Source of the DNA: Acinetobacter sp. UBA801
GTDB lineage: Bacteria > Pseudomonadota > Gammaproteobacteria > Pseudomonadales > Moraxellaceae
Assembly: GCA_002296655.1 (NCBI GenBank)
Contig: DBIN01000007.1
Coordinates: forward strand, 1 to 41,889
Reading direction: 5' to 3'
Length of the DNA stretch: 41,889 nucleotides
Shown here: in pieces, positions 23,784-41,769 of the stretch
Numbering within the stretch: position 1 is the stretch's first letter
Layout of the letters: each line of letters starts with the position of its first letter
Program-made: the position numbers and the translations under genes
Notes under the pieces: model-generated
The model's database searches: none
Told to the model about the DNA's origin: nothing
What the model saw: only the letters and a program-made list of their open reading frames with translations

Positions 23784-24788
23784 TTAAACAGTGCTAGCTT
23801 CTTGTTGATAAATACAGGATTGTGCAATCTGTAGCTGATCCTCCACCGACAGATCAAGATTTTCCCATTTCTGCATCTGCTGCAGGAGCCAGATAAAATC
23901 ATCGACTTTCGGTTCGGCACTTTCCCCAACAAAATTCCGGATAATATTCTTGATCTTGTAAAAGTCATAGACATGCCGCTGGGCGGAACATTCAAACTGA
24001 ATAATCTGATAGTCCACCAGCATGTTCCATACTTCTGATAAATCACTGCGCTGCTTTAAATCATCCTGCGCTTTTTGTACTGCCTTGATCACTGCCTCTA
24101 CGGTAAATGGATGCTGTTCTGCCCATTCCTGGGTCATGGCCAAGACTTTATCGGCAACTTTTGGAATGACATTCTGGCTCGCAGCGACGATAAAGCTATA
24201 GCCTTCAAGTTTGGCCTGAATATTCCAGGGTTCTCCCACGCAAAAACCATCAAATACCTGTTCTGCGATTCCTTTTACCATGGAAGGCGGTGGAGAGGTC
24301 ATTAGCTGGATATTCTTGGCCAGTTGCGGATCAGTCAGCGCCAACCATTCTTTTAAGCAGTAATGGTGAATCGAATATTTATACACATAGGCCAGATGGA
24401 TGGGATGATTCTGTTGTAAAGCCTGCACCAGTTTCTTTGAGGTACTTTTTTCATCATCCCCTGGCTGGATGCCGAGTTCATAACACAGATCTTGCCGCAG
24501 GCTAATAAAAGCCTGATTCACGCTCAGTACTAGAGGGGTTTGCAAAGCCACCTGTAACTGGTCTGTGCCCAAGGCAGCAGCGGGCAACATGGCGGACAGA
24601 CAATGTGCAGCATCCAGAAAGCCATAGGCCAGACGGTCACGCAAACTTGACCAGGAGGCTTCACGGATTAAATTGATGGTTAATCCTTGCTCGGCAAAAT
24701 AACCCTGTTTTTCGGCCCAGAGAATGGCCACACAATCAAGCAAAGGAATATAGCCAATATTGAGTTCAGTTTTTTCTAATGTGGACAT
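23784..24788 (-). CDS. nasS: Nitrate sensor NasS (NrtA/CmpA-like, cytosolic)
   Basis: This is a periplasmic-binding-protein fold of the NrtA/CmpA nitrate-binding family (LNIGYIPLLDCVAILWAEKQGYFAEQGL, then SWSSLRDRLAYGFLDAAHCLSAML). No signal peptide or lipobox is present. This is the hallmark of NasS, which stays in the cytosol, holds NasT in an inactive complex and releases it when nitrate or nitrite binds. The FCVGEPWNIQA motif is typical. The ATG at 24788 (335 residues) is chosen because the longer frame overlaps the nasT stop without similarity. It follows nasT by 10 bases. No NrtBC-type permease or ATPase gene is nearby, supporting a sensor role. Confidence 0.9.
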   Translation of the reverse strand: MSTLEKTELNIGYIPLLDCVAILWAEKQGYFAEQGLTINLIREASWSSLRDRLAYGFLDAAHCLSAMLPAAALGTDQLQVALQTPLVLSVNQAFISLRQDLCYELGIQPGDDEKSTSKKLVQALQQNHPIHLAYVYKYSIHHYCLKEWLALTDPQLAKNIQLMTSPPPSMVKGIAEQVFDGFCVGEPWNIQAKLEGYSFIVAASQNVIPKVADKVLAMTQEWAEQHPFTVEAVIKAVQKAQDDLKQRSDLSEVWNMLVDYQIIQFECSAQRHVYDFYKIKNIIRNFVGESAEPKVDDFIWLLQQMQKWENLDLSVEDQLQIAQSCIYQQEASTV

Positions 24789-24798
24789 ATGCTTTTCC

Positions 24799-25377
24799 TT
24801 ATTGGCCCAATAACAGCTTCTGTGCATCCAGTAAGCGTCTGGCCATTTCACCAATGGTAATCCGGTGACTCATGGCATTTTTACGCAATAAAGCAAAGGC
24901 TTGTTCTTCCGTTAAGGCATGTAGCTGGATGAGCAGTGCTTTGGCTTTATCAATATCTTTACGATCAATCAGCTTGTCCTGGGTTTCTTTTAAATCGTTC
25001 AGCAGCTTTTTATGCTTGCGAAACTGTTCAATTGAAATTTCCAGAATGCTTTCTAATTTGGTGGGATCAATACCATCGACAATATAGGCCGTGATTCCGG
25101 CATCAATCGCACTTTTGATGGTGTCTTTATTGGAGTTCTGGGTAAACAGCACGGTGGGAAGTTCATATTGGCTGACACAGCTTTCAATAATATCCCGATG
25201 CGGATGATCCATATTCAGCAGGATCACATCTGCATGAATGCCTTTGACATGCACCATATTCAGGTCATTCAGGATTAAACAGGCCACCACCTGAAAATCA
25301 TGTAAAAGCAGGGATTCCTGGATGAATTGGGCACGCTCCAGATCATCATCAATAAGAGCAATTCGTAATTTGGACAT
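24799..25377 (-). CDS. nasT: ANTAR-domain antiterminator NasT with altered receiver
   Basis: This RNA-binding antiterminator acts on nitrate/nitrite assimilation transcripts. The N-terminal pseudo-receiver (IALIDDDLERAQFIQESLL) keeps the acidic pocket residues but has Asn55 in ILLNMDHPHRD, where the phosphoacceptor Asp normally lies. A coiled helix (residues 120-145) leads into a C-terminal ANTAR domain (IDKAKALLIQLHALTEEQAFALLRK and MARRLLDAQKLL). It has 192 residues. It is followed by nasS, and the pair is divergent from nirB. Its likely RNA targets are the twin hairpins in the nirB and narK leaders described below. Confidence 0.93.
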   Translation of the reverse strand: MSKLRIALIDDDLERAQFIQESLLLHDFQVVACLILNDLNMVHVKGIHADVILLNMDHPHRDIIESCVSQYELPTVLFTQNSNKDTIKSAIDAGITAYIVDGIDPTKLESILEISIEQFRKHKKLLNDLKETQDKLIDRKDIDKAKALLIQLHALTEEQAFALLRKNAMSHRITIGEMARRLLDAQKLLLGQ

Positions 25378-25483: not shown

Positions 25484-25573
25484 CAGCTTTAGGGATTTCA
25501 GCTGATGGCTGATCAAAATGAAGCGTTTAGGTAGATCATCTGCCTGAAACAAGGCATTTTTCTATTAAAAAAG

Positions 25574-25590
25574 TTGGCACGGTTTCTGCA
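25574..25590 (+). promoter_or_regulatory. Sigma-54 promoter of the nirB operon
   Basis: TTGGCACGGTTTCTGCA matches TTGGCACRNNNNTTGCW at all but one fixed position, with GG (25576-25577) and GC (25588-25589) ten bases apart. Transcription should start near 25601, which places the first ANTAR hairpin at the very 5' end of the RNA. Confidence 0.8.
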
Positions 25591-25601
25591 TTTATTAAAT
25601 C

Positions 25602-25654
25602 GTCAAAGATGACTTTCAATACTAACAACGGCCAACGATGTCCGTTCTGATCGT
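25602..25654 (+). ncRNA. ANTAR-target twin-hairpin leader of nirB
   Basis: Hairpin 1 has a GTC/GAC stem (25602-25604 and 25611-25613) with six-base loop AAAGAT. Hairpin 2 has ACGGCC/GTCCGT (25628-25633 and 25640-25645, one mismatch) with loop AACGAT. Both loops have A at position 1 and G at position 4, the rule for ANTAR protein targets. CTGATCGT follows at once. ACGAT in the second loop can also pair with ATCGT at 25650-25654, giving a structure that excludes hairpin 2. A further AT-rich stem-loop occupies 25655-25679. The closest match is the narK leader at 40304-40357. Confidence 0.75.
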
Positions 25655-25880
25655 AATTGCATTTTCAAAAAATGTGATTGGTATTTCGTTCAGCACAGGA
25701 TAAATGACATGGTCAGTTGTTCAGCAATACAAAACGCACAAGCGTTTCAACCCTTCCTCCAGCATTACAAAGTGCTGGGTCGCGGTATTTACAACATATT
25801 CAATCAGCAGACATATCAATGCCTAGACGTGATATGTGGCTTTTTATCATCTTTAAAAAAACAATAGTTGGAGTGCAGAT
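25655..25880 (+). other. Remaining nirB 5' leader
   Basis: After the ANTAR hairpins the leader continues for about 225 bases. It contains an 11-bp AT-rich stem-loop (25655-25679) and a CCAGCA/TGCTGG hairpin near 25760-25780. Neither is followed by a proper U run, so the exact terminator that NasT would override is not clear. Confidence 0.4.
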
Positions 25881-28427
25881 ATGAAAATTCTCATGATTGG
25901 GCATGGCATGGTGGGGCATAAATTCATCGAATCTGTACTGGAACAGGCCGGTGATGACATTCAGCTGACCATTTTGGCAGAAGAGCCACATTTAGCTTAT
26001 GACCGGGTACATTTGACCGAATATTTCAGCGGCAAGTCGGTCAAGGATCTGAGTCTGTGTCGTAGTGATTTTGCCGATGCTTATGGCATTGATTTGCGAC
26101 TTAATACTAAAGCGGTTGAAATTGATCAGCTCCATAAAACCGTCACCACCAGCCAGGGTGATGTGCTGAGTTTTGACAAGTTGATTCTCGCTACCGGTTC
26201 TTATGCCTTTGTGCCACCAATCCCGGGCAATGACCGTCAGAATTGCTTTGTTTATCGTACCATTGAAGATCTTGATGCCATTCGCGCAGCCAGTCTGAAT
26301 GCCAAAACTGGCGTAGTGATTGGCGGCGGCTTGCTAGGGCTGGAAGCAGCGAAAGCCCTGCGAGATCTGAATCTGGAAACCCATGTCGTAGAATTTGCTC
26401 CGCGTCTGATGGCGGTGCAGATTGATGATCTGGGCGGCCAGATACTGCGCTCTAAAATTGAAGACCTGGGTGTCAAGGTACATACTCAAAAGGCCACCTC
26501 GAGTATTGAAGATGGTGACAGCGCTCAGCATGTAATGAAGTTCGGAGATGGTTCGGTGCTTGAAACCGATATCATCCTGTTCTCGGCCGGCATTCGTCCG
26601 CGTGATGAACTGGCGCGCCAAAGTGGTTTACTGATTGGTGAGCGTGGCGGCATTATCATTAATGATTATTGCCAGACCTCACATCCGGACATTTATGCCA
26701 TTGGTGAATGTGCACTTTGGGACAATAAAATTTATGGTCTGGTTGCACCAGGCTATGACATGGCGCGGATCGCGGCAAAACATGTCCTAGGCCAAGAAAG
26801 TCATGCATTCGCTGGTGCGGACATGAGTACCAAGCTCAAACTGATGGGCGTGGATGTTGCTTCTATTGGTGATGCACATGCCATGTCCCCAGGTGCTTTG
26901 AGCTATTTCTATGCTGATGAAGCCGCGCAGGTTTATAAAAAAATCGTGGTGTCAGCAGATAAGACCAAGCTACTCGGTGCGGTGCTGGTGGGCTGTGCCA
27001 AAGAATATAGCGATCTTTTACAAATGATGCTGAATGGTCTGGCTGTACCGGAGCAACCGGAAAGCCTGATCATGCCGGGCTTTGATCAGTCAACTTCCAA
27101 ATCGGGTGGCAGTGGTGTCGATTTATTGCCTGACAGTGCGACCATCTGTTCATGTAATAACGTTTCCAAAGCGGATATCTGTTCAGCCATTGATGGTGGT
27201 GCAACTTCATTGGGTGCACTGAAAAAATGCACACAGGCTGCAACGGCGTGCGGTGGCTGTGCACCACTGGTAACGCAGGTTCTCAAATCTGAATTACAGC
27301 GTCAGGGTGTCACGGTGAACAATCACCTGTGCGAACACTTTGCCTATTCACGTCAGGAACTGTATCACCTGGTACGCGTGCATGAAATCAAGACATTCTC
27401 TGACCTGATTCAGCAACATGGGCACGGCATGGGTTGTGATATTTGCAAACCGACTGTAGCCAATATTCTGGCATCCTGCTGGAATGATTTTGTTCTGAAA
27501 CCAAGTCATGCCGGTTTGCAGGATAGCAACGACTACTACCTCGGCAATATCCAGAAAGATGGTTCTTATTCGATTGTGCCACGTGTGGCAGGCGGCGAGA
27601 TTACTCCGGATGGCCTGATTACCATCGGTCAGATCGCCAAAGATTATGGTCTATATACCAAAATTACGGGCGGACAACGAATTGACATGTTTGGTGCACA
27701 GGTACATCAGCTGCCTGAAATCTGGGAAAAACTGATCAATGCTGGTTTCGAGTCCGGACATGCCTACGGCAAATCCTTACGTACGGTGAAATCTTGTGTG
27801 GGTAGTACCTGGTGCCGTTTCGGAGTCGATGATTCTGTCGGCTTGGCGATTTTCCTGGAGAATCGTTATAAAGGCCTGCGTTCACCACATAAAACCAAAA
27901 TGGCAGTATCCGGCTGTACCCGTGAATGTGCAGAAGCACAGAGCAAGGATGTCGGTGTCATTGCCACCGAAAAAGGCTGGAATCTATATGTATGCGGCAA
28001 TGGCGGCATGAAACCGCGCCATGCTGAACTGCTCGCCTCGGATCTGGATACTTCCACCCTAATCAAATATATCGACCGCTTCTTTATGTTCTATATCCAG
28101 ACGGCGGACCGTCTGCAGCGCACCAGCGTATGGCGTGACAATATGGAAGGCGGTCTGGACTATCTGAAAGATGTCATTGTGCATGATTCACTAGGCATTG
28201 CTGCTGAACTGGAAAACCGTATGCAGCATGTGATTGGCACTTATCAGGATGAATGGCGCACCGCGATTGAAGATCCTGAAGTACGCAAACGCTTTAAGAC
28301 TTTTATTAATGCCAAAGCAGCCGAGCAGAATGACCCGCATATTCAGTTTGCACCTGTACGTGGCCAGATTCGTCCAAAGACAGAAGCTGAACGTGATTTA
28401 AACCGTATTCCAGTGGTTGAAGCCTAA
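25881..28427 (+). CDS. nirB: Assimilatory nitrite reductase large subunit
   Basis: This cytosolic NAD(P)H-dependent siroheme enzyme reduces nitrite to ammonium. The order is an N-terminal FAD/NAD domain (GHGMVGHKFIE, LATGSYAFVPPIPG, VIGGGLLGLEAAKAL), a BFD-like [2Fe-2S] region (CSCNNVSKADI and ACGGCAPLV), a second CEHF/CDICKP region, then the sulfite/nitrite reductase half domains with siroheme/[4Fe-4S] cysteines C639, C645, C679 and C683. The length of 848 residues is almost identical to E. coli NirB. It is first in the operon and read from a sigma-54 promoter through an ANTAR leader. CTG-rich codon use differs from the left part of the window. Confidence 0.97.
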   Translation: MKILMIGHGMVGHKFIESVLEQAGDDIQLTILAEEPHLAYDRVHLTEYFSGKSVKDLSLCRSDFADAYGIDLRLNTKAVEIDQLHKTVTTSQGDVLSFDKLILATGSYAFVPPIPGNDRQNCFVYRTIEDLDAIRAASLNAKTGVVIGGGLLGLEAAKALRDLNLETHVVEFAPRLMAVQIDDLGGQILRSKIEDLGVKVHTQKATSSIEDGDSAQHVMKFGDGSVLETDIILFSAGIRPRDELARQSGLLIGERGGIIINDYCQTSHPDIYAIGECALWDNKIYGLVAPGYDMARIAAKHVLGQESHAFAGADMSTKLKLMGVDVASIGDAHAMSPGALSYFYADEAAQVYKKIVVSADKTKLLGAVLVGCAKEYSDLLQMMLNGLAVPEQPESLIMPGFDQSTSKSGGSGVDLLPDSATICSCNNVSKADICSAIDGGATSLGALKKCTQAATACGGCAPLVTQVLKSELQRQGVTVNNHLCEHFAYSRQELYHLVRVHEIKTFSDLIQQHGHGMGCDICKPTVANILASCWNDFVLKPSHAGLQDSNDYYLGNIQKDGSYSIVPRVAGGEITPDGLITIGQIAKDYGLYTKITGGQRIDMFGAQVHQLPEIWEKLINAGFESGHAYGKSLRTVKSCVGSTWCRFGVDDSVGLAIFLENRYKGLRSPHKTKMAVSGCTRECAEAQSKDVGVIATEKGWNLYVCGNGGMKPRHAELLASDLDTSTLIKYIDRFFMFYIQTADRLQRTSVWRDNMEGGLDYLKDVIVHDSLGIAAELENRMQHVIGTYQDEWRTAIEDPEVRKRFKTFINAKAAEQNDPHIQFAPVRGQIRPKTEAERDLNRIPVVEA

Positions 28428-40273: not shown

Positions 40274-40290
40274 CTGGCATGACCTATGCA
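40274..40290 (+). promoter_or_regulatory. Sigma-54-type promoter of narK
   Basis: CTGGCATGACCTATGCA has GG (40276-40277) and GC (40288-40289) ten bases apart and matches most of the -24/-12 consensus. The start would be near 40301, immediately before the first ANTAR hairpin, as in the nirB leader. Confidence 0.65.
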
Positions 40291-40303: not shown

Positions 40304-40357
40304 AGTCAAAGAAGACTCTACATTTGTATGACGGCCAATGACGTCCGTTCTGATCGT
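40304..40357 (+). ncRNA. ANTAR-target twin-hairpin leader of narK
   Basis: Hairpin 1 is AGTC/GACT (40304-40307 and 40314-40317) with loop AAAGAA. Hairpin 2 is ACGGCC/GTCCGT (40331-40336 and 40343-40348) with loop AATGAC. Both loops keep A1 and G4. CTGATCGT follows directly, as in the nirB leader. TGACG and CGTTA can form the alternative pairing that excludes hairpin 2. Sequence between the hairpins differs from the nirB copy while stem positions and loops are kept. Confidence 0.75.
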
Positions 40358-40419
40358 TACTGATATGCCTTGTGCATCACAGTGACTTAAATACGTTCAG
40401 TTCTGGTAAGGAAATGGCT

Positions 40420-41769
40420 ATGTCTTCAAATACAAGTCTCAATAAAGCAACAAAAATAAGTCTATTTAACTTCAGTAGTTCAGCGATGCGGGCCTTCCAT
40501 ATGAGTTGGCTCGCTTTTTTTGTCTGTTTCTTTGCATGGTTTGCCTGTGCACCTTTAATGCCTGTCATTGCCGGTGAATTCAGCCTGACCAAAGAGCAGA
40601 TCGCCAATATCAATATTGCCGCAGTCGCCATTACCATTCTGGTGCGTCTGATCGTGGGGCCGCTGTGTGATAAATACGGTCCGCGTAAAACCTATACCGC
40701 CTTATTGATTATTGGCAGTATTCCGGTGTTTGGTGTGGCGTCGGCCAACAGTTATGAATCTTTCTTGTTTTTCCGTTTATTGATTGGCGCCATCGGTGCC
40801 AGTTTTGTCATCACCCAATATCATACCAGCATCATGTTTGCGCCAAATGTGGTGGGAACGGCAAATGCAACTACAGCAGGTTGGGGGAATGCCGGTGGCG
40901 GTGCGACTCAAGCCCTGATGCCTTTAATGCTGGCTGCTTTGGTCATGTTCGGTGTAGAACAGGCGATGGGATGGAGAATTGCGCTTCTGGTGCCGGGCAT
41001 TCTGATGATAATTGTCGGTGTACTGTACTGGAAATTCACCCAAGACTGTCCACAAGGCAATTTTAAAGAACTTCGTGCGCAAGGTATTTCTGTCGGTAGC
41101 GATAAAAAAGGCGGCCTTGCCATCTTGATGCATGCCGCACGTAACTACCGTGTCTGGATTCTATTTGGGGCTTATGCTGCCTGTTTTGGTATTGAAATTT
41201 TTATCCATAATATTATTGCCTTGTACTTTGTCGACAACTTTCAGTTTGGCCTAAAAGAAGCAGGCATGGCAGCCGGGATTTTTGGTTTACTGGCATTGTT
41301 TGCCCGTGCCTTGGGAGGTATTGTTTCAGACAAAGTCGCGATTCAAAAAGGTCTGGATGGTCGAACCAAAGTTCTGTTTGCCTTGATCATGCTGGAAGGT
41401 CTGTTTCTTATTCTGTTTTCGCAAATGAATAGCGCGACCTTGGCTATTATGGCGATGACTATATTTGCCTTGTTTACTCATATGGCATGTGGTGCAACCT
41501 ATGCACTGGTGCCTTTTATCGACCGTGATGCCTTGGGTGGTGTGGCCGGTATTATTGGAGCAGGTGGCAATGTCGGCGCGGTAGCTGCAGGTTTCCTGTT
41601 AAAAGGCATGCTGGATATTCAAACCACCCTGATGGTACTGGGTGGCTTGGTGGTGATTGCTGCAAGTTGTGTGTTGATGATCCGCTTCTCTGTCGAGCAT
41701 AAAGAAAAAGAACAGCGTTTATATGAACAGGCCGTGACTGAACGCCATCTGGCAGAAGCACAGCAATAA
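40420..41769 (+). CDS. narK: Nitrate/nitrite MFS transporter, NarK/NasA type
   Basis: This 12-segment major facilitator permease brings nitrate into the cell for NasA. Both nitrate-signature glycine motifs are present: AGWGNAGGGATQ near residue 155 and IIGAGGNVGAVAAGF near residue 380. The MFS loop LVGPLCDKYGPRKTY... reads VRLIVGPLCDKYGPRKTYT. The ATG at 40420 lies seven bases after AAGGA and is preferred to ATG 40414 or the upstream ATG 40372. It has 450 residues. It has its own sigma-54 promoter and ANTAR leader, so it is coregulated with nirB. Confidence 0.95.
   Translation: MSSNTSLNKATKISLFNFSSSAMRAFHMSWLAFFVCFFAWFACAPLMPVIAGEFSLTKEQIANINIAAVAITILVRLIVGPLCDKYGPRKTYTALLIIGSIPVFGVASANSYESFLFFRLLIGAIGASFVITQYHTSIMFAPNVVGTANATTAGWGNAGGGATQALMPLMLAALVMFGVEQAMGWRIALLVPGILMIIVGVLYWKFTQDCPQGNFKELRAQGISVGSDKKGGLAILMHAARNYRVWILFGAYAACFGIEIFIHNIIALYFVDNFQFGLKEAGMAAGIFGLLALFARALGGIVSDKVAIQKGLDGRTKVLFALIMLEGLFLILFSQMNSATLAIMAMTIFALFTHMACGATYALVPFIDRDALGGVAGIIGAGGNVGAVAAGFLLKGMLDIQTTLMVLGGLVVIAASCVLMIRFSVEHKEKEQRLYEQAVTERHLAEAQQ

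Follow-up and report, generated by a model that had tools for sequence, protein, structure and literature searches.

The leaders of nirB and narK in the window, the stretch of 41,889 nucleotides of Acinetobacter DNA analysed here, are targets of the ANTAR protein NasT and most probably act as switches of translation, a reading to which we assign a probability of roughly 0.6. It draws on features that were computed directly, namely the hairpins of the leaders and their conservation, their co-occurrence with ANTAR proteins, a predicted competing fold and its two-sided coevolution, the leader ORFs and the biased codons of a terminator within narK. The coordinates are collected in Table 1.

Table 1. 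Features of the nasS-nasT, nirB and narK loci, in window positions.
Feature	Position	Strand	Basis or remark
nasS, NMT1-like nitrate sensor partner of NasT	23784..24854	-	name by homology and position
nasT, receiver and ANTAR protein	24799..25377	-	receiver domain below Pfam cut-off
Sigma-54 type -24/-12 site (GG-N10-GC), nirB leader	25574..25589	+	sequence
ANTAR hairpin P1, nirB leader, GTC-AAAGAT-GAC	25602..25613	+	sequence, conservation, covariation
ANTAR hairpin P2, nirB leader, ACGGCC-AACGAT-GTCCGT, C.U mismatch	25628..25645	+	sequence, conservation
Predicted P3 helix with enclosed variable hairpin P4, nirB leader	25647..25693	+	predicted fold
AGGA, likely Shine-Dalgarno (SD) of the leader ORF	25697..25700	+	sequence, by eye
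Leader ORF, 52 aa	25709..25867	+	ORF reading; predicted fold
AU-rich hairpin and five T in the leader ORF, weak terminator candidate	25811..25845	+	fails scan rule
nirB, nitrite reductase large subunit	25881..28427	+	
Sigma-54 type -24/-12 site, narK leader	40274..40289	+	sequence
ANTAR hairpin P1, narK leader, AGTC-AAAGAA-GACT	40304..40317	+	sequence, conservation, covariation
ANTAR hairpin P2, narK leader, ACGGCC-AATGAC-GTCCGT	40331..40348	+	sequence, conservation
Predicted P3 helix (40350-40356 / 40394-40400) around hairpin P4, narK leader	40350..40400	+	
AAGGAA, likely Shine-Dalgarno of narK	40408..40413	+	sequence, by eye
narK, NarK-family nitrate/nitrite transporter	40420..41769	+	
Terminator-like hairpin inside narK	40488..40521	+	7 pairs, loop 13, seven T

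Results

Two leaders of one layout

In both leaders a sigma-54 type site is followed, some 30 nt on, by hexaloop hairpins, the P1 loops lying 29 nt (nirB) and 32 nt (narK) past the start of the site. An earlier note on this DNA had described twin hairpins with A at position 1 and G at position 4 of each loop, and the sequence confirms them (AAAGAT and AACGAT at nirB, AAAGAA and AATGAC at narK). Its observation that the nirB layout recurs 14.7 kb away at narK is likewise correct, given that the first bases of the two P2 hairpins are 14,703 bases apart. Two of its statements hold in part. The common ACGGCC/GTCCGT stem of P2 is present in both leaders, but it is incompletely paired, with a C.U mismatch at the second position from the loop (25632 with 25641 in the nirB leader). 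The identical CTGATCG tail also occurs in both, where CTGATCGT starts at 25647 and at 40350, but it lies outside the ANTAR hairpins and is the 5' strand of the predicted P3 helix, pairing with CGTTCAG (25647-25653 with 25687-25693 in the nirB leader). P1 of the nirB leader has three pairs only. The start codons of the leader ORF and of narK are found 81 nt and 89 nt, respectively, beyond the first base of P2. The NCBIfam score of narK, 302.1, is just below the cut-off of 311.7. A terminator-like hairpin with a T run (25541-25556, + strand) lies a short way ahead of the sigma-54 site of nirB.

NasT is encoded next to the nirB leader, as had been pointed out before; nasT and nasS are adjacent on the same strand, divergently upstream of nirB, and NasT is the sole ANTAR match in this genome (91% complete). 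In other bacteria, NasS holds NasT when nitrate is absent.

The leaders as ANTAR target RNAs

Eighty loci were chosen by nirB homology, 77 of which match the motif pattern. A search of 149 Acinetobacter genomes found the P2 pattern in 123, as against 18 for a reversed control pattern (counted from the listing). Of 149 leader records, three without a sigma-54 site were dropped and 116 unique leaders were kept; comparisons among the leaders were made without a tree, so that the kinship of sequences is only partly controlled. For covariation, 44 diverse leaders were aligned, eight leaders of the pittii/calcoaceticus group with the P1 loop GAAGAC having been excluded beforehand. Double changes occur in four of the five pairs of P1, and the covariation score of P1 and P2 together is 0.246 as against 0.132 in shuffled alignments, none of 500 of which reaches 0.246; when the structure is slid the score is at most 0.100. 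P2 is nearly invariant among the 44 leaders and covariation therefore says little about it. G4 is invariant in the same set, and A1 is invariant in P2 and nearly so in P1, the invariance of the P2 loop being partly built in because its letters were demanded by the search pattern. Pyrimidines face each other at the P2 mismatch in 116 of 116 leaders (C.U 99, U.C 15, C.C 2), a count that is partly forced by the pattern and for which the 77 of 80 nirB-picked loci that match provide the fairer figure. P1 and P2 alone show no unusual folding stability, which is expected of a structure that needs a protein. In the pittii/calcoaceticus group the P1 loop opens with G, not A (GGTC-GAAGAC-GACC), and a shortened narK precedes nirB; G-starting P1 loops are seen at L034-L037, L040, L041, L114, L116, L117, L222 and L224.

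A covariance model, R2, built from 42 leaders with no lwoffii-group sequence among them, was run against the whole genome (91% complete); it finds the two window leaders at E-values of 1.6e-12 and 1.6e-8, the third-best match standing at 0.63. No Rfam family reaches its gathering score anywhere in the window, and at E<=10 five Rfam matches fall in the two leader stretches, none of them to an ANTAR family (Rfam may hold none). Among 19 Acinetobacter genomes searched for both the motif, with model R1, and an ANTAR domain, 15 have both and four have neither, R1 having been built partly from leaders of the genomes later searched with it. Concordance is looser outside Acinetobacter. Motif and ANTAR protein occur together in four of four genomes of g10, a genus of the family, several genera encode an ANTAR protein but give no R1 match, and the reverse, weak R1 matches in genomes with no ANTAR match, is seen in two g9 genomes. 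The g9 loci (L217, L218) were rejected as leaders; an apparent tRNA lies alongside (by eye), an ANTAR match is absent and they look like chance.

The defining features of ANTAR target RNAs, two A1/G4 hexaloops, stems of at least three pairs with covariation and an ANTAR protein encoded in the genome, are all found, and both leaders belong firmly to this class. By analogy with known systems, NasT almost certainly binds both. The claim of the earlier note that these are ANTAR-type target RNAs thus stands, resting on the hexaloops kept in relatives, the covariation of P1 and the concordance of motif and ANTAR protein in 19 of 19 Acinetobacter genomes; the leaders fit a covariance model that was built without them, and loop conservation in relatives together with P1 covariation bears out that both are under selection.

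Distribution of the leaders

At most of the loci chosen by nirB homology, nirB is preceded by the leader at a distance of about 1.5 kb, or one narK length, and in the examples checked narK occupies the gap. In the lwoffii group the operon is split, with narK 14.7 kb away and one leader at each part, and nine other genomes carry paired P2-pattern matches 14.6-14.7 kb apart. On this distribution, the nirB and narK leaders are related. Several species have a second narK paralogue, in most of them 81-83% identical to the window narK, with a leader of its own; examples are L085, L093 and L099. A. baylyi carries the same kind of leader (L033).

A class-wide search with R1 gave matches in 3 of 369 genomes, including the window's own, and no convincing new leader, the two other R1 loci (L166 and L167) being left aside. 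The class-wide P2 pattern occurs in 35 of 274 genomes, and none of the 30 loci read has the twin motif plus a sigma-54 site. A class-wide search with the narK protein found matches in six of 229 genomes, five of them outgroups. Two of the outgroup narK leaders (L200, L202) have an A1/G4 hexaloop hairpin and a strong terminator just before narK, two (L203, L204) have a sigma-54 site and an A1/G4 hexaloop hairpin with no terminator by the strict rule given below, and in L201 no such leader was seen.

Terminators between P2 and the start codon

Under the strict rule (a stem of at least 6 pairs, a loop of up to 110 and six T in eight, between P2 and the start codon) a terminator is found in none of the 116 leaders, both window leaders included; the same rule recovers the outgroup narK leaders L200 and L202. 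Relaxed to five T in eight, it reports a terminator in 15 of 116. The nrtA leader L121 is found only at this relaxed setting and L214, whose stem is bulged, is missed, so that strong terminators are firmly absent and weak or bulged ones less firmly. Scans of both window leaders found no terminator overlapping P2, and an intrinsic terminator in that position is what marks an ANTAR transcription attenuator. The earlier note had read the two leaders as a nitrate-responsive antitermination regulon. A nitrate regulon is supported; antitermination at nirB and narK is not, as the scans find no terminator overlapping P2 there and P2 is predicted to compete with a fold in which the start region is closed.

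When 5-pair stems are allowed, seven of the 116 leaders are flagged (L038, L039, L046, L047, L049, L097, L106). All seven carry one small hairpin, CCGAT-CTG-ATCGG with TTTGTTT after it, and this hairpin overlaps the 3' arm of P2. It may be a classical terminator in the haemolyticus-like group, an informal label. L121 and L214 are operons that start with a nasS-like/NrtA-like gene and are preceded by ANTAR leaders. In both, the strand of P2 is paired to a distal arm close to a U-rich run (in L121, AUGAUGCCC with GGGCGUCAU). Because P2 is here part of a terminator-like stem, NasT probably antiterminates at these nrtA leaders, which would place classical antitermination in the same genus.

A predicted fold that closes the start region

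In the predicted fold of the free leader, the P1-P2 linker and the 5' arm of P2 pair with the start codon and first codons (12 leaders), and the 3' arm of P2 and the tail pair with the SD region and CGTTCAG, P4 forming the tip. The start region of the window leader ORF is likewise predicted to pair with the 5' arm of P2 in this closed fold. The free-fold z values of the window leaders are -2.14 (nirB) and -1.19 (narK). With P1 and P2 forced, opening the start region (-18 to +12) costs 8.8 kcal/mol on average, compared with 13.0 in the free leader, a relief of 4.15 kcal/mol as against 0.35 in position shuffles; 83 of the 116 leaders do better than 95% or more of their own shuffles, which numbered 40 per leader and, like those for the further loci and the unpaired probabilities below, preserve single-base and not dinucleotide composition. 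In the window the relief is 4.4 for the nirB leader and 3.5 for the narK leader, equalled by 0 of 40 shuffles in each case. With group labels set by hand, p<=0.05 is reached by 64 of 77 operon-leading narK leaders (window narK included), eight of eight truncated-narK leaders, three of four lwoffii nirB, six of 18 narK2, one of five Alkanindiges/Solimonas and one of four other leaders; the relief is zero in L006 (A. pseudolwoffii). Sixteen further loci, five of which repeat leaders already used, gave nine at p<=0.05, and seven of the 11 non-repeats did so, four of these 11 being 96-99% identical to used leaders.

The two sides of the closed fold are matched within each leader. Among 25 representatives (<75% identity), the 5' and 3' halves pair more strongly when matched (-22.0) than when swapped (-18.9), a difference attained in 0 of 5000 permutations. 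The start part alone gives p 0.012, and the SD part alone p 0.15 with 25 representatives and p 0.02 with 40. Pairing of the P2 3' arm alone with the SD was discarded as too weak in the swap test. In 40 aligned leaders, drawn from 110 that were left after removing six outgroup or nrtA leaders, the closed fold is paired in 81.2% of cells. Thirteen of its pairs have double changes; shuffled versions have 6.9 and slid versions 7-11. The cells with double changes number 25, a total that one slid version matches with 26. Three results count against this fold. RNAalifold, given the same 40 leaders at full length, predicted P2 alone. With P1 and P2 forced, the unpaired probability of the AUG goes from 0.48 to 0.59, and that of the SD falls from 0.40 to 0.30, which speaks against a switch; the opening energy of the whole start region, given above, speaks for one. 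A synonymous test of the start-region pairing, in which, as in that of the narK terminator below, the codon usage of seven window genes was applied to all species, reached p<=0.05 in 49 of 109 leaders, the window narK standing at p 0.11.

Leader ORFs and a terminator inside narK

Twenty records have a leader before nirB or nasA and no intact narK, and in all of them the aligned start codon opens a short ORF. Its stop lies 8-17 nt ahead of the next gene in 16 of the 20, from four lineages: a 52-aa ORF ending 13 nt before the nirB start in the window and in L001 and L003-L005, an 89-aa ORF, which is an internally shortened NarK, ending 11 nt before nirB in nine pittii/calcoaceticus-group records, one of 105 aa with a 17 nt gap in L068 and one of 81 aa ending 8 nt before nasA in L128. 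The exceptions are L097 (65 aa, 104 nt gap), L006 and L145 (38 aa, 54 nt gap) and L002, where the ORF overlaps nirB. For the ORFs of 81-105 aa, some of which inherit the narK frame, the probability of an open frame under base shuffling is 0.0005-0.0025. It is 0.04-0.05 for the 52-aa ORF, so that the window leader ORF taken alone is weak evidence. By eye, a weak comparison, no similarity was seen between the 52-aa ORF and the ends of NarK.

The terminator-like hairpin inside the window narK has a folding energy of -13.3 kcal/mol and lies 140 nt past P2. Any terminator-like element in the first ORF is found for 60 of the 116 leaders, and within the first 420 nt of these ORFs 54 elements start at nt 60-89 and 11 elsewhere. 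A stricter rule places an intragenic terminator in 39 of 99 narK genes vs 1.6% of their synonymous versions; rare codons, Leu CTC and Arg CGG/CGA/AGA, form it. It is present in the shortened narK of L034-L037, L040, L041, L114 and L097. A terminator scan did not find the narK-type hairpin in the ORFs of L068, a remnant, or L128, and reading of the codons did not find it in the haemolyticus-like group, the brisouii type or narK2. Given that it was not found in several groups, the intragenic terminator is an addition and not the core of the switch.

Discussion

In the mechanism that we propose, we infer the binding of NasT, the direction of its effect, the coupling and the termination. When nitrate is absent, NasS would hold NasT and the arms of P2, by pairing, would close off the start codon and the ribosome-binding region of the first ORF, with P3 and P4 at the tip; the ORF so gated would be narK, or the 52-codon leader ORF ahead of nirB. 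When nitrate is present, freed NasT would bind P1 and P2 and keep P2 closed, leaving the ribosome-binding region open. At nirB the leader ORF may relay the signal, with ribosomes running to 13 nt before the nirB start, and at narK the intragenic terminator would stop transcription only where ribosomes are missing; such coupling of translation to the terminator is plausible. A relay ORF would have been retained at the start site where narK was lost or moved. The broader picture, of an Acinetobacter NasT that is a nitrate-released activator of translation, served by relay ORFs and a first-ORF terminator, and that antiterminates classically at nrtA, is put forward tentatively, at somewhat under even odds.

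Could NasT act at nirB and narK by ordinary antitermination? The site blocked by closed P1 and P2, whether in the leader or the first ORF, would then be one that the scans missed, for instance a weak or bulged intrinsic terminator or a Rho site. Antitermination is the known mode of ANTAR proteins (PMC3369931), the small hairpin with TTTGTTT overlaps the 3' arm of P2 in seven of 116 leaders, and terminators or folds resembling them are present in L121, L214, L200 and L202. We nevertheless regard it as rather unlikely, since the rule that finds L200 and L202 finds a strict terminator in 0 of 116 leaders, the outgroup leaders L203 and L204 are also without one by that rule, and the match of the P2 arms to the start region and the leader ORFs would be left unexplained.

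The clustering of elements at nt 60-89 (54 vs 11) and their excess over the synonymous expectation in narK would also fit an arrangement in which control lies solely at the intragenic terminator, NasT acting through P1 and P2 on the elongating polymerase, with translation constitutive or otherwise set. Such an arrangement is improbable: under the stricter rule no terminator is found in 60 of 99 narK genes, including narK2 paralogues that keep P1 and P2, and in the window the hairpin is as far as 140 nt from P2. Least probable by far is that the hairpins act as DNA, as elements of the sigma-54 promoter, or that they are inverted repeats that arose by chance. They stand at an almost constant distance from the -24/-12 site (the P1 loop is 31 nt away in 61 of 116 leaders), which speaks for this reading, but the RNA-type covariation, the conserved loops, the co-occurrence with ANTAR proteins and the genome-wide E-values argue against it.

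The translational switch that we favor has counterparts elsewhere. Riboswitch-type translational switches form mutually exclusive folds at the start region, and in leader-peptide attenuation a leader ORF is linked to expression of the next gene. Unlike in riboswitches, the ligand here would be an RNA-binding protein freed by a nitrate sensor. NasS-NasT antitermination of leaders is reportedly known from Azotobacter. Paracoccus NasT binds its nasA leader RNA, and interference with a terminator was postulated (PMC3795266); for nosR, terminator interference is stated (PMC6759348). As in the nas and nos systems of Paracoccus and Bradyrhizobium, NasT is encoded beside NasS and a hairpin leader stands ahead of nitrate genes, but no such terminator is seen in the Acinetobacter window leaders. 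ANTAR attenuators consist of P1 and P2 hexaloop hairpins with A at position 1 and G at position 4, and in the published ones an intrinsic terminator overlaps P2 (PMC3369931). The window leaders share P1, P2 and the A1/G4 hexaloops with the EutV, AmiR and NasR RNAs, whereas their P2 overlaps a predicted start-closing helix, not a terminator. Actinobacterial ANTAR RNAs lie at ribosome-binding sites, with repression by the protein in mycobacteria (PMC8164766). The window leaders resemble these in their predicted tie to translation initiation, but the actinobacterial type holds the ribosome-binding site or AUG within the two hairpins, and the window start codons lie outside them, 81 and 89 nt past the start of P2.

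In Ramesh 2012, ANTAR RNA matches without a terminator are said to be possible controls of translation initiation, and in one search a terminator was present in only about 30% of matches in ANTAR-bearing genomes. Most descriptions of ANTAR proteins cast them as antiterminators, and where a natural mode of translational control was found in print (mycobacteria, cited in PMC8164766) it is repression; the open-licence PMC literature yielded nothing on NasT as a translational activator or on these Acinetobacter leaders. If the proposal is true, an ANTAR protein that activates translation in response to nitrate, with replaceable relay ORFs, would broaden the range of the family and would account for ANTAR RNAs without terminators.

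A second ANTAR leader is seen in genus g10 before a porin-like gene, named by eye (L207, L209, L211). In these leaders P2 is followed by a very short leader ORF with a strong SD; the ORF by eye reads MLIFHDNKT in two of the three and is shorter in L211.
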